A DNA stretch of 47,776 bases from Paludibacteraceae bacterium. GTDB taxonomy: Bacteria; Bacteroidota; Bacteroidia; Bacteroidales; Paludibacteraceae. Of the stretch, positions 6,618 to 38,468 are shown piece by piece (the stretch's first letter is position 1; each line of letters begins with the position of its first letter). The notes under the pieces are model-generated. The model was given only the letters and a program-made list of their open reading frames with translations. It was not told the DNA's origin and did no database searches. The DNA lies in NCBI GenBank assembly GCA_017503075.1, contig JAFVTU010000013.1, forward strand, positions 1-47,776, written 5' to 3'. A program made the translations under genes and the position numbers.

Positions 6618-6648
6618 TTGCGTATATGCTTTTTTTGTTGTACCTTTG
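6618..6648 (+). promoter_or_regulatory. promoter of the plus-strand cobalamin riboswitch transcript
   Basis: TACCTTTG at 6641-6648 with TTG at 6618-6620, spacing 20. The aptamer begins immediately downstream. Confidence 0.85.
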
Positions 6649-6651
6649 CAC

Positions 6652-6806
6652 CGCATTCAGTCAAGGGAAGCAGGTGTAATTCCTGCACAGTCCCGCTGCT
6701 GTGATTCGCAATCATGTCGCTAACTCTTTATGTCACTGGCGTTTATGCTGGGAAGGCAAGCGATAATGAGCGATAAGTCAGAAGACCTGCTGCGTGCCAC
6801 CAACGA
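6652..6806 (+). promoter_or_regulatory. cobalamin riboswitch (upstream of the DUF4465 gene)
   Basis: The sequence contains the conserved aptamer blocks in order: GGGAAgcaGGTGtAAtTCC, then CAGTCCCGCtgCTGTGA, later CTGGGAAGGC, and the B12 box AAGTCAGAAGACCTGC at 6775-6790. The family senses adenosylcobalamin or related corrinoids and usually switches genes off when B12 is plentiful. The start codon of the next gene is about 350 bp away, unusually far, and a second structured element lies in between. Confidence 0.93.
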
Positions 6807-6977
6807 GGAGTTGGTGAAGTTGAACGCTCTCGGGGAATCGAGCCAACGACAATGACGCAAAGGTTTTCAATATTATCTATGGTACGCTTGTACGCGTATA
6901 GGTATTTGATAGATGTATCAAGTACCCATTTGTTGTGTCCGATGGTCAGTGTGTTTCTCGGGAGTCAAAATCCCTAT

Positions 6978-12905: not shown

Positions 12906-13974
12906 AGTTTTTAGCATCTGTAACATATATATCACCATTATAAGGATTGACTTGTATACCATATGGAATCTTAATCTCTTGTTCCGTTCCGTCTGTAATA
13001 AAATGTTCGGAAACGAGTGTTTGTTTTCGGATGTCAAAAATGCCATATGTTATTTGATTTGACATAGTTTGTTCACTCCAATGTGTTCCATAAAAATACA
13101 TACTATCGCCTATTATTACCATTTCGCTTACTGCTGGCGCATTGACAATTGGCAATTGGCAATTGGTCGAAGGCGAGAAACAGGTGAGTTGTGGTTGAAC
13201 ATCTTTATAGTCTCCACGAGATGTAATCCACAATTGATTATATTGGTCTTGACGCAAGCGGTGTGGATTCAGGCAAACAGGAATCTTTTGCACTTGTTTG
13301 AAATTTTCCAAAGAGATAACCGACATCGTAGAATCGTAGTCGGGGGCTCTATAACCGCCCGAATTCACCACATAAATATGCTCATTATGAACCACCAATT
13401 CTTCGGGCTGGTAGCCCACAGTCACTTTGCGAGTAATTTGCAACGTGGCAGTATCAATCTCAAATATCGCACCTAACTGAGCATTCGGATCGATGCTCAC
13501 TGGTCCAACATACGAACTTACATATGCCTTATTACCACGAAAACAAATGTAGCGACAATTAGGGATATCCACTTGACCGATACGGCGACAGGTACGGGCA
13601 TCCATCACCTCCACTTTGTGCGAGCAGTTGATCACCGCATATAGGCGATTGCCATAGATTTGTATATCATTGCCGACATCACCTAACTCTTTCACCACAT
13701 TCGGATTGCGTTCGCCATAGATATTACGGACATAACAACCATTGCAGAAATCAACGTAGTCAATAGTGGCTTTGTTGCTACCCATATTACCTTCGTTGAG
13801 TAGGTACATGCCTATGGGTTCGTTGGATGCAAAACTGCTCAATTCTCTCGATTCCATCGGCAAAACCTCGTACTCAGATGGGTAGGTAACCTCGTCGGTA
13901 CGACAACTCAACAAGCCAATAGCCAATAACCAATAGCCAATAGCCCCAATCAATATGTTATACTTACCGTACAT
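12802..13974 (-). CDS. btuG: BtuG-type surface B12-capture lipoprotein (beta-propeller)
   Basis: A 390-residue outer-membrane lipoprotein. The signal peptide ends at a lipobox (AIGLLSCRT). The rest is a seven-bladed-type propeller with repeated strands: NDIQIYGNRLYAVI, VEVMDARTCRRIGQV, RYICFRGNKAYVSS, IFEIDTATLQITRKV, PEELVVHNEHIYVV, NPYNGDIYVTDA. BtuG proteins bind B12 with very high affinity and form a lid on BtuB (known for Bacteroides). Adjacent position right after btuB, with about 25 bp overlap, supports the call. The hydrophobic core of the signal peptide is encoded by four 7-nt repeats (13914-13941), and a second heptamer array (GGCAATT, 13145-13168) lies in a loop. Confidence 0.88.
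   Translation of the reverse strand: MYGKYNILIGAIGYWLLAIGLLSCRTDEVTYPSEYEVLPMESRELSSFASNEPIGMYLLNEGNMGSNKATIDYVDFCNGCYVRNIYGERNPNVVKELGDVGNDIQIYGNRLYAVINCSHKVEVMDARTCRRIGQVDIPNCRYICFRGNKAYVSSYVGPVSIDPNAQLGAIFEIDTATLQITRKVTVGYQPEELVVHNEHIYVVNSGGYRAPDYDSTMSVISLENFKQVQKIPVCLNPHRLRQDQYNQLWITSRGDYKDVQPQLTCFSPSTNCQLPIVNAPAVSEMVIIGDSMYFYGTHWSEQTMSNQITYGIFDIRKQTLVSEHFITDGTEQEIKIPYGIQVNPYNGDIYVTDAKNYVSSGQLHCYSREGKRKWSVRTGDIPAHMCFVYR
13145..13168. repeat. GGCAATT heptamer repeat inside btuG
   Basis: About three units of a 7-nt repeat (CAATTGG phase) encoding NCQLPIVNAP in a propeller loop. Confidence 0.75.
13914..13941. repeat. AGCCAAT heptamer repeat in the btuG signal-peptide codons
   Basis: Four units (AGCCAAT, AGCCAAT, AACCAAT, AGCCAAT) and a partial fifth. 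On the coding strand they read ATTGGCT and encode YWLLAIGLL. Since 7 is not a multiple of 3, gain or loss of one unit would shift the frame before the lipobox. Confidence 0.85.
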
Positions 13975-16148
13975 TTATAATTTCGTTTTGGCATTGGATA
14001 ATTGATAATCACATCATAATCTTGTGATAGAAGATTATTTATGTCTAGCGCTACACGCAAGGTTATAGGAGAGATAGATCGATTCGCTGTAGATGGTAGA
14101 TCGGCAACGCCTGTAGATCGCTTCGCTGTAGGCTGGATGTTCCATTCGCCAAAAACACTCAGATCGTGGGTATACCAAGGTTGGGTGTAGTTATAGATGA
14201 TATTTTCCTGTTGGTTGTAGCGTTCTCCTACATAGATAAAGCTGTAATTTAAGCCATACTGCTGCCAGTCGTTTTGCCAACCAAACATACCCACAGCACT
14301 ACCCGAATGCCATGGGATATAGGGTATCTGATCGCCATAATAGGTGTCGTTGGGATCGGTGACATCGATAGCCGTTTGGTAGGTGTATTGCGCTTTGGCG
14401 GTGAGGTAGAAGTCTTTTGGTAAGACGAAATGCAATTGCGCATTGATGTCTATACCGTTGATTTTAACCAATCCGAGGTTTAGCATTGTCCAGCGGAACT
14501 GCTGGCCTTTTGGGTAAGCGATGATCTTATCGGATATGCGATTGTAGTAGTAATCGGCATTGATGCGGAACTCCGAGCCCTTTTGCCCCGCAATGCGGAA
14601 AGGTTGTGTAAAGCTCAATCCAACACTATGCTGCTTTGCCAACTCGGGTTTGAGGTAGGCATTACCCATGTCGGTATAATAAAGGTCGTTGAAAGTGGGA
14701 TAGCGGTAACTCTGTTTGTAGAAAGCATTAAGGCGGAGGTCAACGAGTTGAGTAGGGCGGTAGGACAGGAACAAAGCTGGAGTCCATTTTATGCTCGCTA
14801 CGCTCGCGTTAGTGGCTTGCTCTGCAAGCGTTGATGGCTTCGCGTTAATGGCTTCGCGTTGATGGGCTTCGCCGTTGTTGGTTGATTTTGCGTCATTGAC
14901 AAATGTCCCTAATACGCTGGCTTGGAGGCGCAGGTAGTTCTTTATATTGATAGCAGTGGCTGCGCTGAGCCAATGTGTCCAACGGTGCGCGTCGAGGAAC
15001 ATGCTGAGTTGGTTGTACTGCACATCGTATGCTGCGCTGACATCCCACCAATCAAAGATACGCACTTTGTGCGCCATGGTGAAGTAGAACTCCTGTTGCA
15101 GATATTGGTTCTCCACGCGGATGAGTTTGTCATCGTTGTTGATATAGCGCGTATAGTCGTTGGCGTACTTCATGTTCGCCCGCACCGACCAGCGGTTGAA
15201 CAACTCATCTTGCCAAGTGGCTTGCACAAAGGAGTTGCGATCCCACAGGCGTTCGCCATTGCGCCACACATTATTCACAATCGCACCCGGCACACCGCGC
15301 TCGGAGTTGTAGTGATAGAGTTGGAGTTTCCAGAAGCCCGTGTTGCTATAGTAGTGATTGAGTGCCGCTTCCACGCGGATGGCATTGATGTCGCCATTCT
15401 GGCGGATGGCAGTAGTGTCGTATGCCACTTCACCCGACGGAGTGACGCGGCGATAGCGGAAAGGGTACTTGCCATCAGAGGATACGAGTTCGGCATTCGC
15501 CGTGATGGACATCGTTTCGCTGAGGCGGATATCGAATAGCAGACTGGGATTGATAAGTGCAAAACTGCCTGCACGCATCTGCGCTTTCACGTTGAAGGCC
15601 TTGCCTGCCTCGAAACGCGGACGGCGGGTGGTGAGGTAGATACTTCCCGCAGCACCAAACTCGCGTGCGGACTGCCAGATGTCGGACTTCTGACCGTTGT
15701 AGAGTTGGATCTCTTCGATGTTTTCGAGCGAATATTTGCCGAGGTCGATTTGTCCGTTTTGTGCATTGCCGAGTTGTACACCATTGTAGAAAACCCCCAT
15801 GTGATTAGTACCCATAGAACGGATATTGACTGTCTTCAAACCGCCAACACCACCATAATCTTTGATCTGTACACCCGAGAAATAGCGAATAGCATCGGCT
15901 ACGCTGAGGGCGTTCATCTTCTTGAGTTGTACGCCGCTAAGTGTCTGAGGGATAATGATGTCCTTCTCTTTGACGCGTGCGGTGATGGTGTACTCATCTA
16001 AGTCGATATAACGGGCGATGTCCGAAGAATCGGACATAACGGACGCTACGCTATCGGTTATCGGATATAGGTTATCGGCGGCATTGTTTTGAGAGAATGC
16101 TGCCACACACATGAGTGTGAAAAATACTATGGATATTAATCTACGCAT
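13950..16148 (-). CDS. btuB: TonB-dependent B12 receptor BtuB
   Basis: Outer-membrane receptor of 732 residues. It has a signal peptide (MRRLISIVFFTLMCVAAFSQ), a plug domain at about 60-185 (QLKKMNALSVADAIRYFSGVQIKDYGGVGGLKTVNIRSMG, here quoted in part, then NGVQLGNAQNGQIDLGKYS) and a 22-strand-type barrel ending near CTVSITY. It is the first gene after the minus-strand cobalamin riboswitch, and btuG follows in overlap; together they form the capture and transport complex. Three low-complexity inserts are visible: heptamers after the signal peptide (residues 24-33), palindromic units at residues about 421-452 and a PTAxRS repeat near residues 670-690. These would lie in periplasmic or surface loops. 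Confidence 0.92.
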   Translation of the reverse strand: MRRLISIVFFTLMCVAAFSQNNAADNLYPITDSVASVMSDSSDIARYIDLDEYTITARVKEKDIIIPQTLSGVQLKKMNALSVADAIRYFSGVQIKDYGGVGGLKTVNIRSMGTNHMGVFYNGVQLGNAQNGQIDLGKYSLENIEEIQLYNGQKSDIWQSAREFGAAGSIYLTTRRPRFEAGKAFNVKAQMRAGSFALINPSLLFDIRLSETMSITANAELVSSDGKYPFRYRRVTPSGEVAYDTTAIRQNGDINAIRVEAALNHYYSNTGFWKLQLYHYNSERGVPGAIVNNVWRNGERLWDRNSFVQATWQDELFNRWSVRANMKYANDYTRYINNDDKLIRVENQYLQQEFYFTMAHKVRIFDWWDVSAAYDVQYNQLSMFLDAHRWTHWLSAATAINIKNYLRLQASVLGTFVNDAKSTNNGEAHQREAINAKPSTLAEQATNASVASIKWTPALFLSYRPTQLVDLRLNAFYKQSYRYPTFNDLYYTDMGNAYLKPELAKQHSVGLSFTQPFRIAGQKGSEFRINADYYYNRISDKIIAYPKGQQFRWTMLNLGLVKINGIDINAQLHFVLPKDFYLTAKAQYTYQTAIDVTDPNDTYYGDQIPYIPWHSGSAVGMFGWQNDWQQYGLNYSFIYVGERYNQQENIIYNYTQPWYTHDLSVFGEWNIQPTAKRSTGVADLPSTANRSISPITLRVALDINNLLSQDYDVIINYPMPKRNYKCTVSITY
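14081..14140. repeat. CTGTAGAT-linked repeat near the btuB C-terminus
   Basis: GATCGATTCG, CTGTAGAT, GGTAGATCGGCAACGC, CTGTAGAT, CGCTTCG, CTGTAGG follow each other in frame. They encode two PTAxRS-like copies (QPTAKRS and PSTANRS). Confidence 0.7.
14789..14883. repeat. in-frame palindromic repeat array inside btuB
   Basis: On the plus strand small GC blocks (CGCTACGCTCGC, CTTGCTCTGCAAGC, CTTCGC, CTTCGC, GCTTCGCC) alternate with an 8-nt linker GTTAGTGG, GTTGATGG, GTTAATGG, GTTGATGG, GTTGTTGG. CTTGCTCTGCAAG is a perfect hairpin. The array encodes about 30 polar residues in a barrel loop (around 421-452). Confidence 0.8.
16052..16079. repeat. TATCGGT heptamer repeat near the 5' end of btuB
   Basis: Four units (TATCGGT, TATCGGA, TATAGGT, TATCGGC) encode the stretch NLYPITDSV directly after the signal peptide. 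Confidence 0.8.
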
Positions 16149-16182
16149 GTTGTTTGACTCTATACCACGAGAGTGTTCAACT

Positions 16183-16334
16183 AAGCATGCAGCAGGTCTT
16201 CTGACTTATTGCTCGTTTGTTCAGCCTTCCCACCTGATAGGCAGTGACTTAGATTCGGAACAAACGATATTGCAAATCACAGCAGCGGGTCTGTGCCAGA
16301 ATCTCACTGGCTTCCCTAAAACTGAATGCGGGTG
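16183..16334 (-). promoter_or_regulatory. cobalamin riboswitch of the btu operon
   Basis: On the minus strand the conserved aptamer blocks appear in order: GGGAAGCCAGTGAGATTC, CACAGACCCGCTGCTGTGA, GGTGGGAAGGC and the B12 box AAGTCAGAAGACCTGC. The btuB start codon is about 40 bp beyond the box, so control of translation start is likely. The core sequence GACCCGCTGCTGTGATT..GCAAT is nearly the same as in the plus-strand riboswitch. Confidence 0.94.
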
Positions 16335-16365
16335 CAAAGGTACAACAAAATTTGCGGATTTGCAA
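16335..16365 (-). promoter_or_regulatory. promoter of the btu operon
   Basis: TACCTTTG on the minus strand (CAAAGGTA, 16335-16342) with TTG 20 bp upstream (16363-16365); the aptamer starts right after it. Confidence 0.85.
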
Positions 16366-34043: not shown

Positions 34044-35348
34044 TCATTTCTTCAGTTCGCCTGCGAAATACCTATCATACGACGCCATATCGATTAGTCC
34101 ATGACCTGATAGGTTGAATAGTATCACTCGCTCTACGCCTTCCTCTTTTGCCTTAAGTGCCTCATCTATAGCCGCTTTGATGGCATGTGTAGATTCGGGC
34201 GCAGGGATAATTCCTTCCACTTGGCTAAAGAGTACACCCGCCTCAAAACTATCCAACTGATTGATATCCACCGCCTCTATCAACCCATCTTGGCGCAATT
34301 GGCTGACGATAGCCCCCGCACCATGATAGCGCAATCCACCTGCATGGATGGCTTCTGGCTCGAAGTCGTGCCCCAACGTAAACATTGGAATAAGCGGCGT
34401 AAAGCCTTCAGTATCACCAAAATCGTATTCAAATCGTCCTTGCGTTAGCTTAGGACACGCCTCAGGTTCGGCAGCAATAAAGCGCGTTTTATATCCTTTG
34501 GTTAGGTTATCACGCATAAATGGGAAGGTTATTCCGCAGAAATTACTACCACCACCAAAGCATCCAATCACCACATCAGGATAGTCGCCTGCTATCTCCA
34601 TTTGCTTGCGGGCTTCCTCGCCAATGATAGTCTGATGGAGGCACACGTGATTGAGCACAGAGCCCAATCCATATCGCGTATCTGGCTGTTTACGAGCCAC
34701 TTCCACCGCCTCTGAGATTGCCATGCCCAAACTGCCTGGCGTATTGGGGAACTGTGCTCTCAGCGATCGCCCAGCTTCGGTGGTGAAGGATGGAGAAGGG
34801 ATGATTGTTGCCCCATAGGTGCGCATCACGGACTTGCGGTATGGTTTCTGCTCGTAGCTGGAGTTCACCATAAATACGGTTAAATCCAATCCAAAGTGTT
34901 TGCACGCGATAGACAACGCGGAGCCCCACTGCCCTGCTCCCGTCTCAGTGGTCATATGCTTGATCCCCTGCTGCTTATTGTAATATGCCTGGGGTATTGC
35001 AGAGTTCAGTTTGTGCGAGCCAACGGGGCTGACACTCTCGTTTTTGAAGTAGATTTTGGCAGGTGTATCCAGTGCTTTCTCCAGTCCACTGGCACGCACA
35101 AGAGGCGTTGGGCGGAAGATACGATATAGTTCTTGCACTTCTTCGGGTATATCAATATACGGCTCTTGCGAGAACTCTTGCTCTACTAATGCCTCTGCAA
35201 ATAGCGAACTCATCTCCTCTTTTTTCAGCGGTTCACGCGTAACGGGATTGAGTAATGGAGCAGGTTTATTGGGCATATCTGCCACAATATTATACCATTG
35301 AGTAGGCATCTCATTCTCCTGCAATACAATCTTCTTCGTAATCTTCAT
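34044..35348 (-). CDS. trpB: TrpB2-type tryptophan synthase beta chain
   Basis: A 434-residue PLP enzyme that joins indole and serine to tryptophan. Longer N-terminal part and PTPLVRASGLEKAL, the PLP Lys in VGSHKLNSA, GAGQWGSAL, the phosphate loop GCFGGGSNF and the C-terminal LSGHGLIDM are those of the TrpB2 subfamily, which often works without a TrpA partner. No other trp gene is in the window, so this could act as an indole salvage enzyme. It is the last gene of a long minus-strand run that starts near 41431. Confidence 0.9.
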   Translation of the reverse strand: MKITKKIVLQENEMPTQWYNIVADMPNKPAPLLNPVTREPLKKEEMSSLFAEALVEQEFSQEPYIDIPEEVQELYRIFRPTPLVRASGLEKALDTPAKIYFKNESVSPVGSHKLNSAIPQAYYNKQQGIKHMTTETGAGQWGSALSIACKHFGLDLTVFMVNSSYEQKPYRKSVMRTYGATIIPSPSFTTEAGRSLRAQFPNTPGSLGMAISEAVEVARKQPDTRYGLGSVLNHVCLHQTIIGEEARKQMEIAGDYPDVVIGCFGGGSNFCGITFPFMRDNLTKGYKTRFIAAEPEACPKLTQGRFEYDFGDTEGFTPLIPMFTLGHDFEPEAIHAGGLRYHGAGAIVSQLRQDGLIEAVDINQLDSFEAGVLFSQVEGIIPAPESTHAIKAAIDEALKAKEEGVERVILFNLSGHGLIDMASYDRYFAGELKK

Positions 35349-35369: not shown

Positions 35370-36158
35370 TTACCAACGGCGACGAAATAATCCGCCAATC
35401 AAACAGATTAATATATAGAATGGATATACCACCTCCAACAGCAACGCTGTACCGAAGCCAACCGACTTATCGCGTTTCTTAATCAAGTGATATTCAATCG
35501 GAAACTTCACAATCAAAGCCACAGGAAATAACACCTGTATCACATTGGCTATCAATACGATTGCTCCGCAGCAAAGAATATCTTTGTCCGTGTATTTAGG
35601 TGCCTTGCCTGCCCAACGCATGCGCTGACGGAAGAACGCGCTCCACGAGGTGTGAGGACGAACGATGGCGGTCAATTCCTCGCTCTCACTCACCGCAATC
35701 TTCAGCCCCCTCCGCTTAAACGACTCTAAAAGAAACATATCATCACCACTCGGTATTTCGGGGTGCAAATCGGGATAGGACTCTAACCACCTGTCGCGCT
35801 TGGCGATGAGGTTCGCTCCGCTACACATGACTGCGTGCCCTCGCTTGGCTGTTTCTATGGTGAGTTGCTGAATGGCAGCATACTCGGCAATTTGCAACCG
35901 CTCTAGGAGCGACGGTTTCTCCCTCTCCGACTCCATCCGAAGAGTCAAGATAAGCAAATCCATGCCTTTAACCTCTAAACTGTAGCCCGATAGGGCGTCC
36001 TCTAAACTATGCAAGATGACGTCGTCATCTTGCATCCACACATACTCCGTCTTCGCTTCCGATATAAGGCGATAAAGAGCATGTTTCTTGCCCTTACCTT
36101 CGTCGTTAATTCCCTTTTGTGGTACAACAATAGTTATATTTTTCTCGCCTCTTAACAC
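35370..36158 (-). CDS. glycosyltransferase family 2, N-terminally short
   Basis: 262 residues starting with GTG at 36158; no ATG lies upstream in frame. The usual parts from the middle of a GT2 are present: GKGKKHAL, the DxD region in MQDDDV, the acidic motif SGDDMFLLESF, the RxxRW motif RQRMRWAGKA, and two to three C-terminal membrane segments. The first 50-60 residues of the nucleotide-binding fold (the SVIVPARNE-like strand and the first DD) are missing. The frame stays open upstream into the beta-lactamase gene but holds no GT-like sequence. It is either a truncated, possibly dead transferase or an unusual short variant. Confidence 0.75.
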   Translation of the reverse strand: MLRGEKNITIVVPQKGINDEGKGKKHALYRLISEAKTEYVWMQDDDVILHSLEDALSGYSLEVKGMDLLILTLRMESEREKPSLLERLQIAEYAAIQQLTIETAKRGHAVMCSGANLIAKRDRWLESYPDLHPEIPSGDDMFLLESFKRRGLKIAVSESEELTAIVRPHTSWSAFFRQRMRWAGKAPKYTDKDILCCGAIVLIANVIQVLFPVALIVKFPIEYHLIKKRDKSVGFGTALLLEVVYPFYILICLIGGLFRRRW

Positions 36159-37352: not shown

Positions 37353-38468
37353 TTATAATTTTAAGGTGTTAATTCGACGAAAATGTTCCATAAACTGCGG
37401 ATAGGATTTGCTGATGCAGGCGGTGTCGTCCACTTCGTAGCCAGCAATTAACAACGCCATTGCCATGCGGTGGTCGTGGTCGGTACGGTGTTCGCGCACA
37501 GCGCGCAGGCGGTCGGATTCTTTGATTGGTAACGAGTCGGTGCCTGTGGCGTGTAACTCTATGCCCAAACGCTCGCAAGTAAGAGCGACAGCAGGGTAGA
37601 GATCGGGGCAGCTTCCAAAATCCTGGGTAAGGATTTTGGAATGGGACGTCGCTTGTGCGGCTATAGGACGCCCACTCAGTGGGCTATTGGACGCTTCGCT
37701 ATAGGCGATAGGCGAAAGGATGATGCCTTCGGGGGTATATTCAGTATGTACGCCGAGGTGGGCGAAGATGTCGGCAACGACCTTATCGCCTTGCAAGGAG
37801 TCACAAGAGAGTCCTGGGAGCGTAATCTCACCACCATGAAGGGCTACATACTCGTACCAGAAGGCAGCGGAGGACCAGTCTTTTTCTAAAGCGGACGCCG
37901 CTTGTGCGGCTATTGGACGCCCACCATGTGGGCTATTGGACGCCCTATGGGCTATTGGGTATTGGTCAATGATTTCTCGTGTGAGGGTGATGTAAGGCGA
38001 GGTGCTATTGGTTTGGACGTTTGCACCGATGAGGAGTAAGGCGGAAACGAACTGTGTGGATTGGGGATTGTTGAGAGTAACTATCCTATGCTTATCCAAT
38101 ATACATCCCTTAATGCGCAAAGGCGGGAAGCCCTCTTCGCCCAAATACTCAATATCTGCGCCTATCTCACGCAAAGCTTCTACTAACTGACCTATAGGAC
38201 GGTGACGCATGCGTTCTACGCCATCAAGAATAACCGTTTGTCCCTCTAGTTGAGCACAGTAGGAAGTGAGGAAGCGCATCGCCGTGCCGCAGTTGCCCAC
38301 ATCAATGAGGCTATGAGGCGATGAGGCTATAAGGCATAAGGAGCGGTGAAGAATCTGCACATCATCGGGCATAGAATCGGAGACGGGCATAAGCTCGTCT
38401 CCGTGTATAGCCTGAAGTATGAGCCAACGATTGGCTATAGACTTCGATATGGGCAGTTCGATGCGCAT
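37353..38468 (-). CDS. aroA: EPSP synthase with two in-frame repeat inserts
   Basis: 3-phosphoshikimate 1-carboxyvinyltransferase of the shikimate pathway, 371 residues (the usual length is about 430). The conserved parts are present: SKSIANR, GNCGTAMRFL, RMRHRPI, STQFVSAL, KDWSSAAFW, PDLYPAVAL, KESDRLRAV, DHRMAMAL. Two inserts are encoded by GC-rich palindromic repeats: residues about 168-192 (ASNSPHGGRPIAAQAAS) and about 259-275 (ASNSPLSGRPIAAQATS). A third low-complexity stretch (LCLIASSPHSLID) comes from an 8-nt repeat near the N-terminus. All active-site motifs survive, so the enzyme is probably functional. Confidence 0.93.
   Translation of the reverse strand: MRIELPISKSIANRWLILQAIHGDELMPVSDSMPDDVQILHRSLCLIASSPHSLIDVGNCGTAMRFLTSYCAQLEGQTVILDGVERMRHRPIGQLVEALREIGADIEYLGEEGFPPLRIKGCILDKHRIVTLNNPQSTQFVSALLLIGANVQTNSTSPYITLTREIIDQYPIAHRASNSPHGGRPIAAQAASALEKDWSSAAFWYEYVALHGGEITLPGLSCDSLQGDKVVADIFAHLGVHTEYTPEGIILSPIAYSEASNSPLSGRPIAAQATSHSKILTQDFGSCPDLYPAVALTCERLGIELHATGTDSLPIKESDRLRAVREHRTDHDHRMAMALLIAGYEVDDTACISKSYPQFMEHFRRINTLKL
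37645..37694. repeat. palindromic repeat insert A inside aroA
   Basis: GACGTCGCTTGTGCGGC, linker TATAGGAC, hairpin GCCCAC-TCA-GTGGGC, linker TATTGGAC, GC. It reads through in frame on the minus strand. Confidence 0.9.
37894..37966. repeat. palindromic repeat insert B inside aroA
   Basis: GAC, hairpin GCCGC-TTGT-GCGGC, linker TATTGGAC, hairpin GCCCAC-CAT-GTGGGC, linker TATTGGAC, hairpin GCCC-TAT-GGGC, then TATTGGGTATTGG. It shares its first 50 bp with insert A at about 90% identity. Confidence 0.9.
38307..38344. repeat. ATGAGGCT 8/7-nt repeat inside aroA
   Basis: ATGAGGCT, ATGAGGCG, ATGAGGCT, ATAAGGC, ATAAGG in frame near the N-terminus of AroA. Confidence 0.8.

Follow-up and report, generated by a model that had tools for sequence, protein, structure and literature searches.

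The window, that is, the whole stretch of 47,776 nucleotides that was analysed, carries at 37353..38468 on the minus strand an aroA gene for EPSP synthase, a 371-aa open reading frame (ORF) assigned through profile matches to TIGR01356 (E 5e-53; 180.4 bits, under the 287.25 cut-off) and PF00275 (E 2.3e-44 across residues 47-323). The family profile covers two inserts, A (37893..37960, minus strand) and B (37644..37699, minus strand), and the aroA reading frame stays open through both. A sequence-only reading had described them as a palindromic repeat inserted twice in frame and adding two nearly equal peptides, and these are indeed encoded, RASNSPHGGRPIAAQAAS by insert A and SEASNSPLSGRPIAAQATS by insert B. 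At the DNA level, a 51-nt core at 37644-37694 is repeated with 90% identity at 37893-37943, 249 nt from start to start. Read on the coding (minus) strand, insert A consists of three hairpin modules on constant linkers, GCCC-ATA-GGGC (A1, 37942..37952), GCCCAC-ATG-GTGGGC (A2, 37919..37933) and GCCGC-ACAA-GCGGC (A3, 37897..37910), and insert B of another three, GC-GAA-GC (B1, 37693..37699), which equals the published DNA mini-hairpin d(GCGAAGC) (PMC4686876), GCCCAC-TGA-GTGGGC (B2, 37670..37684) and GCCGC-ACAA-GCGAC (B3, 37648..37661), with one mismatch. The hairpins had been called perfect throughout, which holds for insert A (plus strand GCCGC-TTGT-GCGGC, GCCCAC-CAT-GTGGGC and GCCC-TAT-GGGC) and for GCCCAC-TCA-GTGGGC (plus strand) of insert B, but not for GTCGC-TTGT-GCGGC of insert B, from whose hairpin list GC-TTC-GC had moreover been omitted. 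In both arrays the hairpins are separated on the coding strand by GTCC[A/T]ATA, and the constant linkers are TATTGGAC and TATAGGAC, as the earlier reading had given them. With up to two mismatches, GGGCTATTGGACG has four matches in the window, all within inserts A and B; these are not due to chance, since none of 100 shuffles reached four. A search of the window against Rfam at the gathering threshold gave no match at the aroA inserts; it returned two cobalamin riboswitches only, at 6641-6808 (plus strand) and 16174-16362 (minus strand).

For comparison, AroA of 20 out of 80 relatives was aligned, distinguishing four filler sites (N, C, A and B) with filler types labelled by hand. Insert A is present in relatives L031 and L033 and absent from L032, L034 and L035, insert B is present in L031, L032 and L033, and the more distant L047, L048 and L052 have short loops that lack the array and the peptides, in keeping with the suggested presence and absence among relatives. 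A conserved functional peptide of AroA was accordingly rejected as an explanation, the insert peptides being absent from more distant AroA and found in unrelated proteins. The residues invariant in 40 aligned AroA sequences, among them K8, S9, R13, N58, G60, T61, R64, R89, Q138, D288, E316, R319, H332, R333 and K353, fall outside the inserts; they include the usual EPSP-synthase motifs, which are thus intact, as had been claimed. Because L031, a separate MAG, has both inserts, of which A differs in one loop and B has a third hairpin that is unbroken, as it is in L032, the inserts are not an artefact of one assembly. Within L031, moreover, site A and site B have identical cores, and the window's site A is matched by site B of L032, likenesses that give the pair in part the look of a local duplication or conversion. 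The aroA-matching ranges L062:3001-3978 and L078:3001-3966, from two draft genomes, each have one in-frame stop codon.

A dispersed family of hairpin modules

Dozens of further copies were found in the genome by blastn and by linker pattern. A blastn query with 66 nt of insert A matched 32 places in its own genome at E <=10 and 25 at E <=0.01 (both aroA arrays counted), in which the linkers are constant and the hairpin letters variable, and CTATWGGACG occurs 53 times in this genome, against 13 for the reversed control. The module emerging from these copies is a short hairpin (stem 2-6 bp, mostly with a 3-nt loop) followed by GTCC and the A/T-rich linker NATA. A strict pattern (CCNWTA, hairpin with 3-nt loop, GTCC) retrieved 188 modules, 77 from 487 kb of the window's genome and 111 from 438 kb of G022, the genome of its relative L033, many stretches of both genomes having been picked around known copies, so that the densities are not those of random samples. 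These modules contain 23 different arms and 75 combinations of arm and loop, most commonly the arms GCCC (43), GC (42), GGCG (16), GCTCGC (15) and GCCGC (13). Hence no single repeat has been copied, because the arms vary: of the proposed twofold insertion of a palindromic repeat, the array of shared modules stands, with tag and linker as its constant part, and the hairpin arms form a vocabulary of 23 or more sequences.

The association of hairpin and tag was also seen from either side. Of 92 GTCC[ACT]ATA linkers in 445 kb of the window's genome, 49 are preceded by a perfect hairpin (stem >=4, loop 3-5), compared with 2,653 of 126,000 random positions. Ranking the tetranucleotides that follow hairpins (stem >=4, 3-nt loop) placed TATT (63) and GTCC (59) first against a median of 17, where TATT can be inferred to be the same linker seen from the opposite strand. 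As a lone tag GTCC follows 63 such hairpins, 45 of them also preceded by CCNWTA, and the same letters in other orders follow 12-35. An unbiased k-mer search after hairpins gave a clear signal in G000 (the window's genome), G069 and G071, and none in 31-50 kb samples of G070, G072, G073, G075 and G077.

Modules run head to tail within arrays, and opposed arrays exist in L147 and L213. Among 25 arrays with at least two linkers (445 kb sampled), 12 lie inside ORFs with more than 20 aa on either side, one of these being a dubious 130-aa ORF; modules also sit between genes. The hosts include TruA, a CobW-type GTPase, an ABC ATPase (antisense), MurG, the 4-alpha-glucanotransferase MalQ, a PD-(D/E)XK nuclease-like protein and an M20 peptidase as well as AroA. 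A Pfam match was obtained for all nine proteins submitted (eight array hosts and the glycosyltransferase of the window; the 493-aa protein of L147, which has two arrays, was left out of this set), spanning the array in AroA, MurG, MalQ (in a starch-binding domain) and the ABC ATPase and adjoining it in the others. Identical stretches surround the elements on contigs C29 and C13 of the window's genome (L013/L014, L021/L022), which fits either a duplicated strain or contamination, estimated at 5.5%.

Hairpins of the same sort also occur on two other linker types, AAACTGTA-hairpin-GTCCTCTAAAC and GATCTACA-hairpin-GATCTACA. The second type occurs in the window at 35985..35996 (plus strand) as GCCC-GATA-GGGC, antisense within the glycosyltransferase gene (35370-36158, minus strand), where G070, G071 and G077 have the first type. 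The third is represented by GC-GAA-GC followed by GATCTACA at 14120..14126 (minus strand), within the ORF at 13950-16148 (minus strand), which also holds a GC-GTA-GC module at 16045..16051 (minus strand), with CCGATA before it and GTCC after it, adjoining a heptamer tandem at 16052-16078. CGATCTACAGCG is found in nine out of nine relatives, 1-24 times in each and 66 times in total, and its reversed control not at all. GAACTAC was considered as a fourth linker and dropped with 0, 0 and 1 modules in three sets. A fourth hairpin type, GCACCCC-hairpin-GGGGACCCCGC, lies at the aroA N-site of L036, L040, L043 and L045; it forms clean 39-nt insertions, in frame in aroA, and a 39-nt indel separates L221 from L142:580.

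Stem length, loop type and strand

In the modules the type of loop depends on the length of the stem. A GNA loop, read on the GTCC strand, is present in 40 of 42 modules with a 2-bp stem, 4 of 5 with 3 bp, 42 of 62 with 4 bp, 6 of 55 with 5 bp and 0 of 24 with 6 bp (92 of the 188 overall), against a background of 9.2% among 3,616 GCNNNGC sequences. TNC loops, which are GNA loops read on the opposite strand, number 0, 0, 0, 12 and 1 for the same stem lengths, and four-nucleotide loops have the form GNNA in just 3 of 18 cases. The combination of a GNA loop with two or more closing G-C pairs is described as an 'extraordinarily stable' DNA mini-hairpin, with a melting temperature of ~78 C for GCGAAGC (PMC4686876). 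Standard DNA energy parameters, which include no GNA bonus, give one value for all five GCNNNGC sequences tested. Five- and six-bp stems show no GNA excess, TNC (12) even exceeding GNA (6) at 5 bp, and this lack is compatible with the idea, taken up below, of a stability threshold, but gives that idea no support. For linker types 2 and 3, the ratio of GNA to TNC is 7:0 of 14 and 6:0 of 8 in the window's genome and 15:2 of 22 and 2:0 of 6 in pooled relatives; in G022 it is 0:0 of 6 for type 3 and, weakly, 3:2 of 11 for type 2.

In orthologous arrays at five of seven loci (aroA site B and the M20 site were dropped for unequal lengths), 12 of 50 loop columns are variable, in comparison with 4 of 140 in stems and 7 of 182 in linkers, that is, loops vary ~8 times as much as stems. 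Since the weakest stems nearly always have the loop that rescues them in single-stranded DNA, it is folded single-stranded DNA that seems to be kept, and these patterns suggest that the hairpins are maintained for this fold rather than for their letters, with selection on RNA as the alternative.

The hairpins may also favour one strand. Of 74 arrays, examined in stretches of 14-48 kb, 46 have the GTCC strand on the strand with C>G. At |skew| >=0.06, one of several thresholds tried, this rises to 23 of 28 arrays and to 14 of 14 intergenic ones, and with a gene-balanced third-position skew the numbers are 27 of 39 and 12 of 15, respectively. For arrays in ORFs at 0.06, the raw skew gives 9 of 14 (p 0.42) and the balanced skew 15 of 24, a p of 0.03 being reached only for sense arrays with balanced skew. 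Gene direction alone was rejected as the cause of orientation: arrays in ORFs are mostly sense (26, against 12 antisense), whereas the 36 intergenic arrays are mostly antisense to both flanking ORFs (22, with 5 sense to both). Replication direction, for which skew is taken as a proxy, fits better, though not cleanly. If the leading strand is G-rich, as is usual, the skews are suggestive of a GNA hairpin on the strand that has the nascent lagging-strand sequence.

Fillers and modules in related species

The loops that hold modules in the window hold other repeats, or none, in related species. At site A of aroA, the window, L031 and L033 have the module array and the rest of the near clade has other repeat types; site C, filled in the window by an octamer tandem (38305..38335, minus strand, period 8), has a hairpin array in L033 and L038. 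The fillers of sites A and B combine as aaggaac-aattc (L036), aattc-cccctta (L042), cccctta-tttacac (L041), tttacac-ctacagcgag (L037), ctacagcgag-gatctac (L038) and gatctac-aaggaac (L040), six pairs that form a cycle, and fillers common to different aroA genes are nearly identical by eye. Recombination between species is the simplest reading of this cycle and of the near-identity of shared fillers, so that the changing combinations at the same protein loops suggest exchange of this kind. The filler types at sites A, B and C need 10, 8-9 and 7-10 changes (minimum 7, 5 and 4) on two poorly resolved trees, built from AroA blocks and from the neighbouring peptidase gene, in which 2 of 14 and 1 of 13 inner branches are starred. 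This peptidase is 93-97% identical in ten genomes, and AroA of the same relatives 70-91%. A 434-aa protein encoded at 34044-35348 (minus strand) is 100% identical in G075 with diverged neighbours, pointing to a recent interspecies transfer.

A graded series is seen at the M20 site in 16 species, with native loops in G011, G035, G041 and G059, plain tandems in G004, G042, G072, G073 and G076, heptamer arrays with a single hairpin in G075, G077 and G022, several hairpins in G000, G070 and G074, and another hairpin-bearing filler in G069. MurG, compared in 15 species, has an array in G000, G069 and G073, other repeats in G074 and G072, and no module array in the rest, and TruA has an array in 3 of 16 (G000, G069 and G070). 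Clean interspecies indels comprise one of 62 nt (L149:14531 relative to G069), made of three modules of which the last is imperfect, with CCTATAG at both edges, and one of 37 nt with GCGAAGC.

That permissive protein loops simply gather low-complexity sequence, with hairpins as a by-product and no spreading element, would agree with the unrelated heptamer or octamer fillers at the same sites in other species and with several period-7 tandems in the window. This reading would not explain why perfect stems with 23 arms share a single linker, why GNA depends on stem length, why the strands are asymmetric or why copies lie between genes, and it is disfavoured as quite improbable. The period-7 tandems found in the window by TRF are ATTGGCA, AGCCAAT, TATCGGT, GTGTAAA, TTGAGAG, CTTTAAA and AAGGTTA, in a heptamer style like that of the linkers.

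Abundance of the exact linker is, as sampled, confined to some close relatives. Among 61 genus genomes, 17 contain GCGTCCWATAGC, that of the window 24 times, G022 51 times and the others at most 5 times each; seven further relatives reached through loci have it 6-19 times, and a scan at the level of the order found the exact linker in 50 of 295 genomes, with at most 4 occurrences outside the own genome. Such unevenness (two of the 61 genus genomes with 24 and 51, the remaining 59 with 0-5, and the seven relatives with 6-19), and a presence that differs between close species at the same locus, speak against a host function, by which the hairpins would be putative protein-binding or RNA-processing sites under selection and their coding copies tolerated spill-over. 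Conserved stems and the antisense lean of intergenic arrays (22 of 36, with 5 of 36 sense) would suit such a function, which nevertheless appears very unlikely.

Spread of the modules and known systems

An even chance is given here to the reading that the inserts are arrays of structure-defined DNA mini-hairpin cassettes, multiplying by template switching or slippage and spread between species by recombination. A cassette would comprise a hairpin with free arms, then on one strand the 4-nt tag GTCC, then one degenerate heptamer unit joining it to the next. Folding of single-stranded DNA at replication forks might let modules multiply, as a very stable short hairpin would stall synthesis and the nascent end could re-pair at a different heptamer, whether of that array, of a sister array (as between aroA sites A and B) or of some other place, copy one or a few modules, and then return. 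Intrastrand copying would keep stems perfect as loops drift, new versions would spread by homologous recombination between species, and selection would retain insertions that stay in frame within tolerant loops. Switching or slippage at heptamers accounts for module indels edged on both sides by linker, for the resemblance between aroA sites A and B, and for stems that are perfect beside drifting loops; hairpin-free heptamer fillers and the graded module numbers at the M20 site in 16 species also count in favour of the cassettes. Against them, recurring arms (GCCC in 43 of 188 modules) need copying between distant loci, beyond simple slippage, and the aroA pair is the sole pair of donor and recipient seen.

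The main rival reading invokes an enzyme, for which the genome encodes a candidate. An initial statement that it has no transposase was overturned when a weak Pfam hit proved to be the ORF of a RAYT-like HUH-Y1 protein with MPDHVH and YIQDNP motifs (G000:C5:66627-67733, equal to L138:16627-17733, minus strand; PF01797 at 24.5 bits with a cut-off of 23, NF047646 at 38.5 bits, below its cut-off of 80). Its product has a ~150-aa C-terminal extension, and the gene lies, by eye, downstream of a putative hsdS and contains two in-frame copies of a CTCGGCG hairpin. The modules would then be REP-like elements moved by an HUH-Y1 transposase (RAYT/TnpAREP) that recognises a hairpin and its foot tetranucleotide and copies them into single-stranded DNA, the RAYT gene being now rare or lost in some species. 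Homologues are found in 16 of 25 genomes searched, and both motifs in all nine RAYT-like genes read. In six of these nine a perfect hairpin (stem >=8, loop 3-6) lies between the start codon and the stop codon, and a seventh hairpin precedes the first ATG; ~132 different hairpins of this class exist in 487 kb of the window's genome. Of seven TTCGCTCA-NNNN-TGAGCGAA hairpins in L253 (G003:C2:43001-50000), two are inside the RAYT-like gene and the other five form a tandem next to it. Insertion of REPs in frame into tnpAREP genes is also on record (PMC6006769). Modules of linker types 1-3 were found at none of the nine genes, either inside or within 2.5 kb (two flanks extending just 1.3 and 2.3 kb). 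Moreover, no homologue was detected in the draft genomes of G069, G070, G075 and G076, which have modules (17, 7 and 9 exact linkers in G069, G070 and G075, respectively), RAYT presence and module number show no clear relation, the tag is not GTAG or GTGG, and stems of two bp fall short of the 5-13 bp of described REPs. RAYT mobilisation is thus regarded as possible though unlikely, and we infer that template switching or slippage is the favoured route of spread for the cassettes.

A more far-reaching reading, put forward tentatively and judged rather doubtful, is that of a propagating element inherited as a single-stranded DNA fold, free to use any arms that pass a stability threshold (two G-C pairs being enough with GNA) on at least three interchangeable linkers, and traded between gut Bacteroidales as in-frame alleles of housekeeping genes. 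The trade-off between stem length and loop type points to the folding of single-stranded DNA, and the many close species provide a graded series of sites (native loop, heptamer filler, one hairpin, several) by which birth, spread and decay become directly testable. It also follows that housekeeping-protein loops in these bacteria can be repeat-derived and mosaic, and may mislead trees and annotations.

REP-like elements within genes are of a kind already known, being described in genes for tRNA pseudouridine synthase and, for two species of Xanthomonas, at about the same place in recB (PMC3733652). The earlier remark that no such family is known in Bacteroidales is too strong at the level of the phylum, as Bacteroidetes are named both among the phyla with CGTC-tagged REPs, which include Rickettsia RPE-4 and RPE-6 (Di Nocera 2013, PMC3733652), and for a subclass of tnpAREP genes, common in Bacteroidetes, with in-frame REP insertions (PMC6006769). 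Variable arms on constant linkers, the relation of GNA to stem length and the interspecies traffic at housekeeping loci did not appear in the literature searched, which mostly comprised papers outside subscription.

The CGTC-tagged REPs resemble the modules as short, dispersed palindromes with an unpaired tag and variable paired stem letters, some of them within genes, and with no dedicated transposase known (PMC3733652). They have 8-9 bp stems with AT first pairs, 4-5 nt loops and CCA tails and form mainly head-to-head dimers, whereas the modules have 2-6 bp stems with G-C ends and mostly 3-nt loops, often GNA, run head to tail on heptamer linkers and carry GTCC 3' of the hairpin on the GNA strand; location within genes is thus shared, and stem, loop and dimer form are not. 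GTAG REPs and BIMEs with RAYT likewise join a hairpin to a foot tetranucleotide, form arrays and have in-frame copies in tnpAREP genes (PMC3733652, PMC6006769), and RAYT-like genes exist in this genus, but the modules have another tag (GTCC on the 3' side, or GGAC 5' on the other strand, rather than GTAG or GTGG 5'), shorter stems and arms that are not fixed, and flank none of the nine RAYT-like genes. The d(GCGNAGC) mini-hairpins, whose form GC-GNA-GC is that of 40 of the 42 modules with two-bp stems, are known as oligonucleotides and aptamer parts (PMC4686876), and here are genomic repeats. Yeast mitochondrial GC clusters share GC-rich palindromes, merger and shuffling of units and exchange between species; yet GC42 is one 42-nt sequence and the clusters are flanked by AG or ACT direct repeats (PMC4478555), while the modules have variable arms and linker units at their edges. 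The CCTATAG at both edges of the one clean 62-nt indel, the case that bears on direct repeats, is expected alike from linker exchange and from duplication.

Rickettsia, some Proteobacteria and others are the best-known hosts of REP-like elements that invade genes in frame, and Rickettsia RPE-1, a longer element in a different phylum, is a palindromic insertion found in frame in unrelated genes. The comparison with Rickettsia palindromic elements made in the sequence-only reading, and drawn here from published descriptions, is apt in the sense of working alike: a dispersed, gene-invading palindromic family does exist in this genome, inserted in frame into unrelated ORFs and present or absent between relatives.
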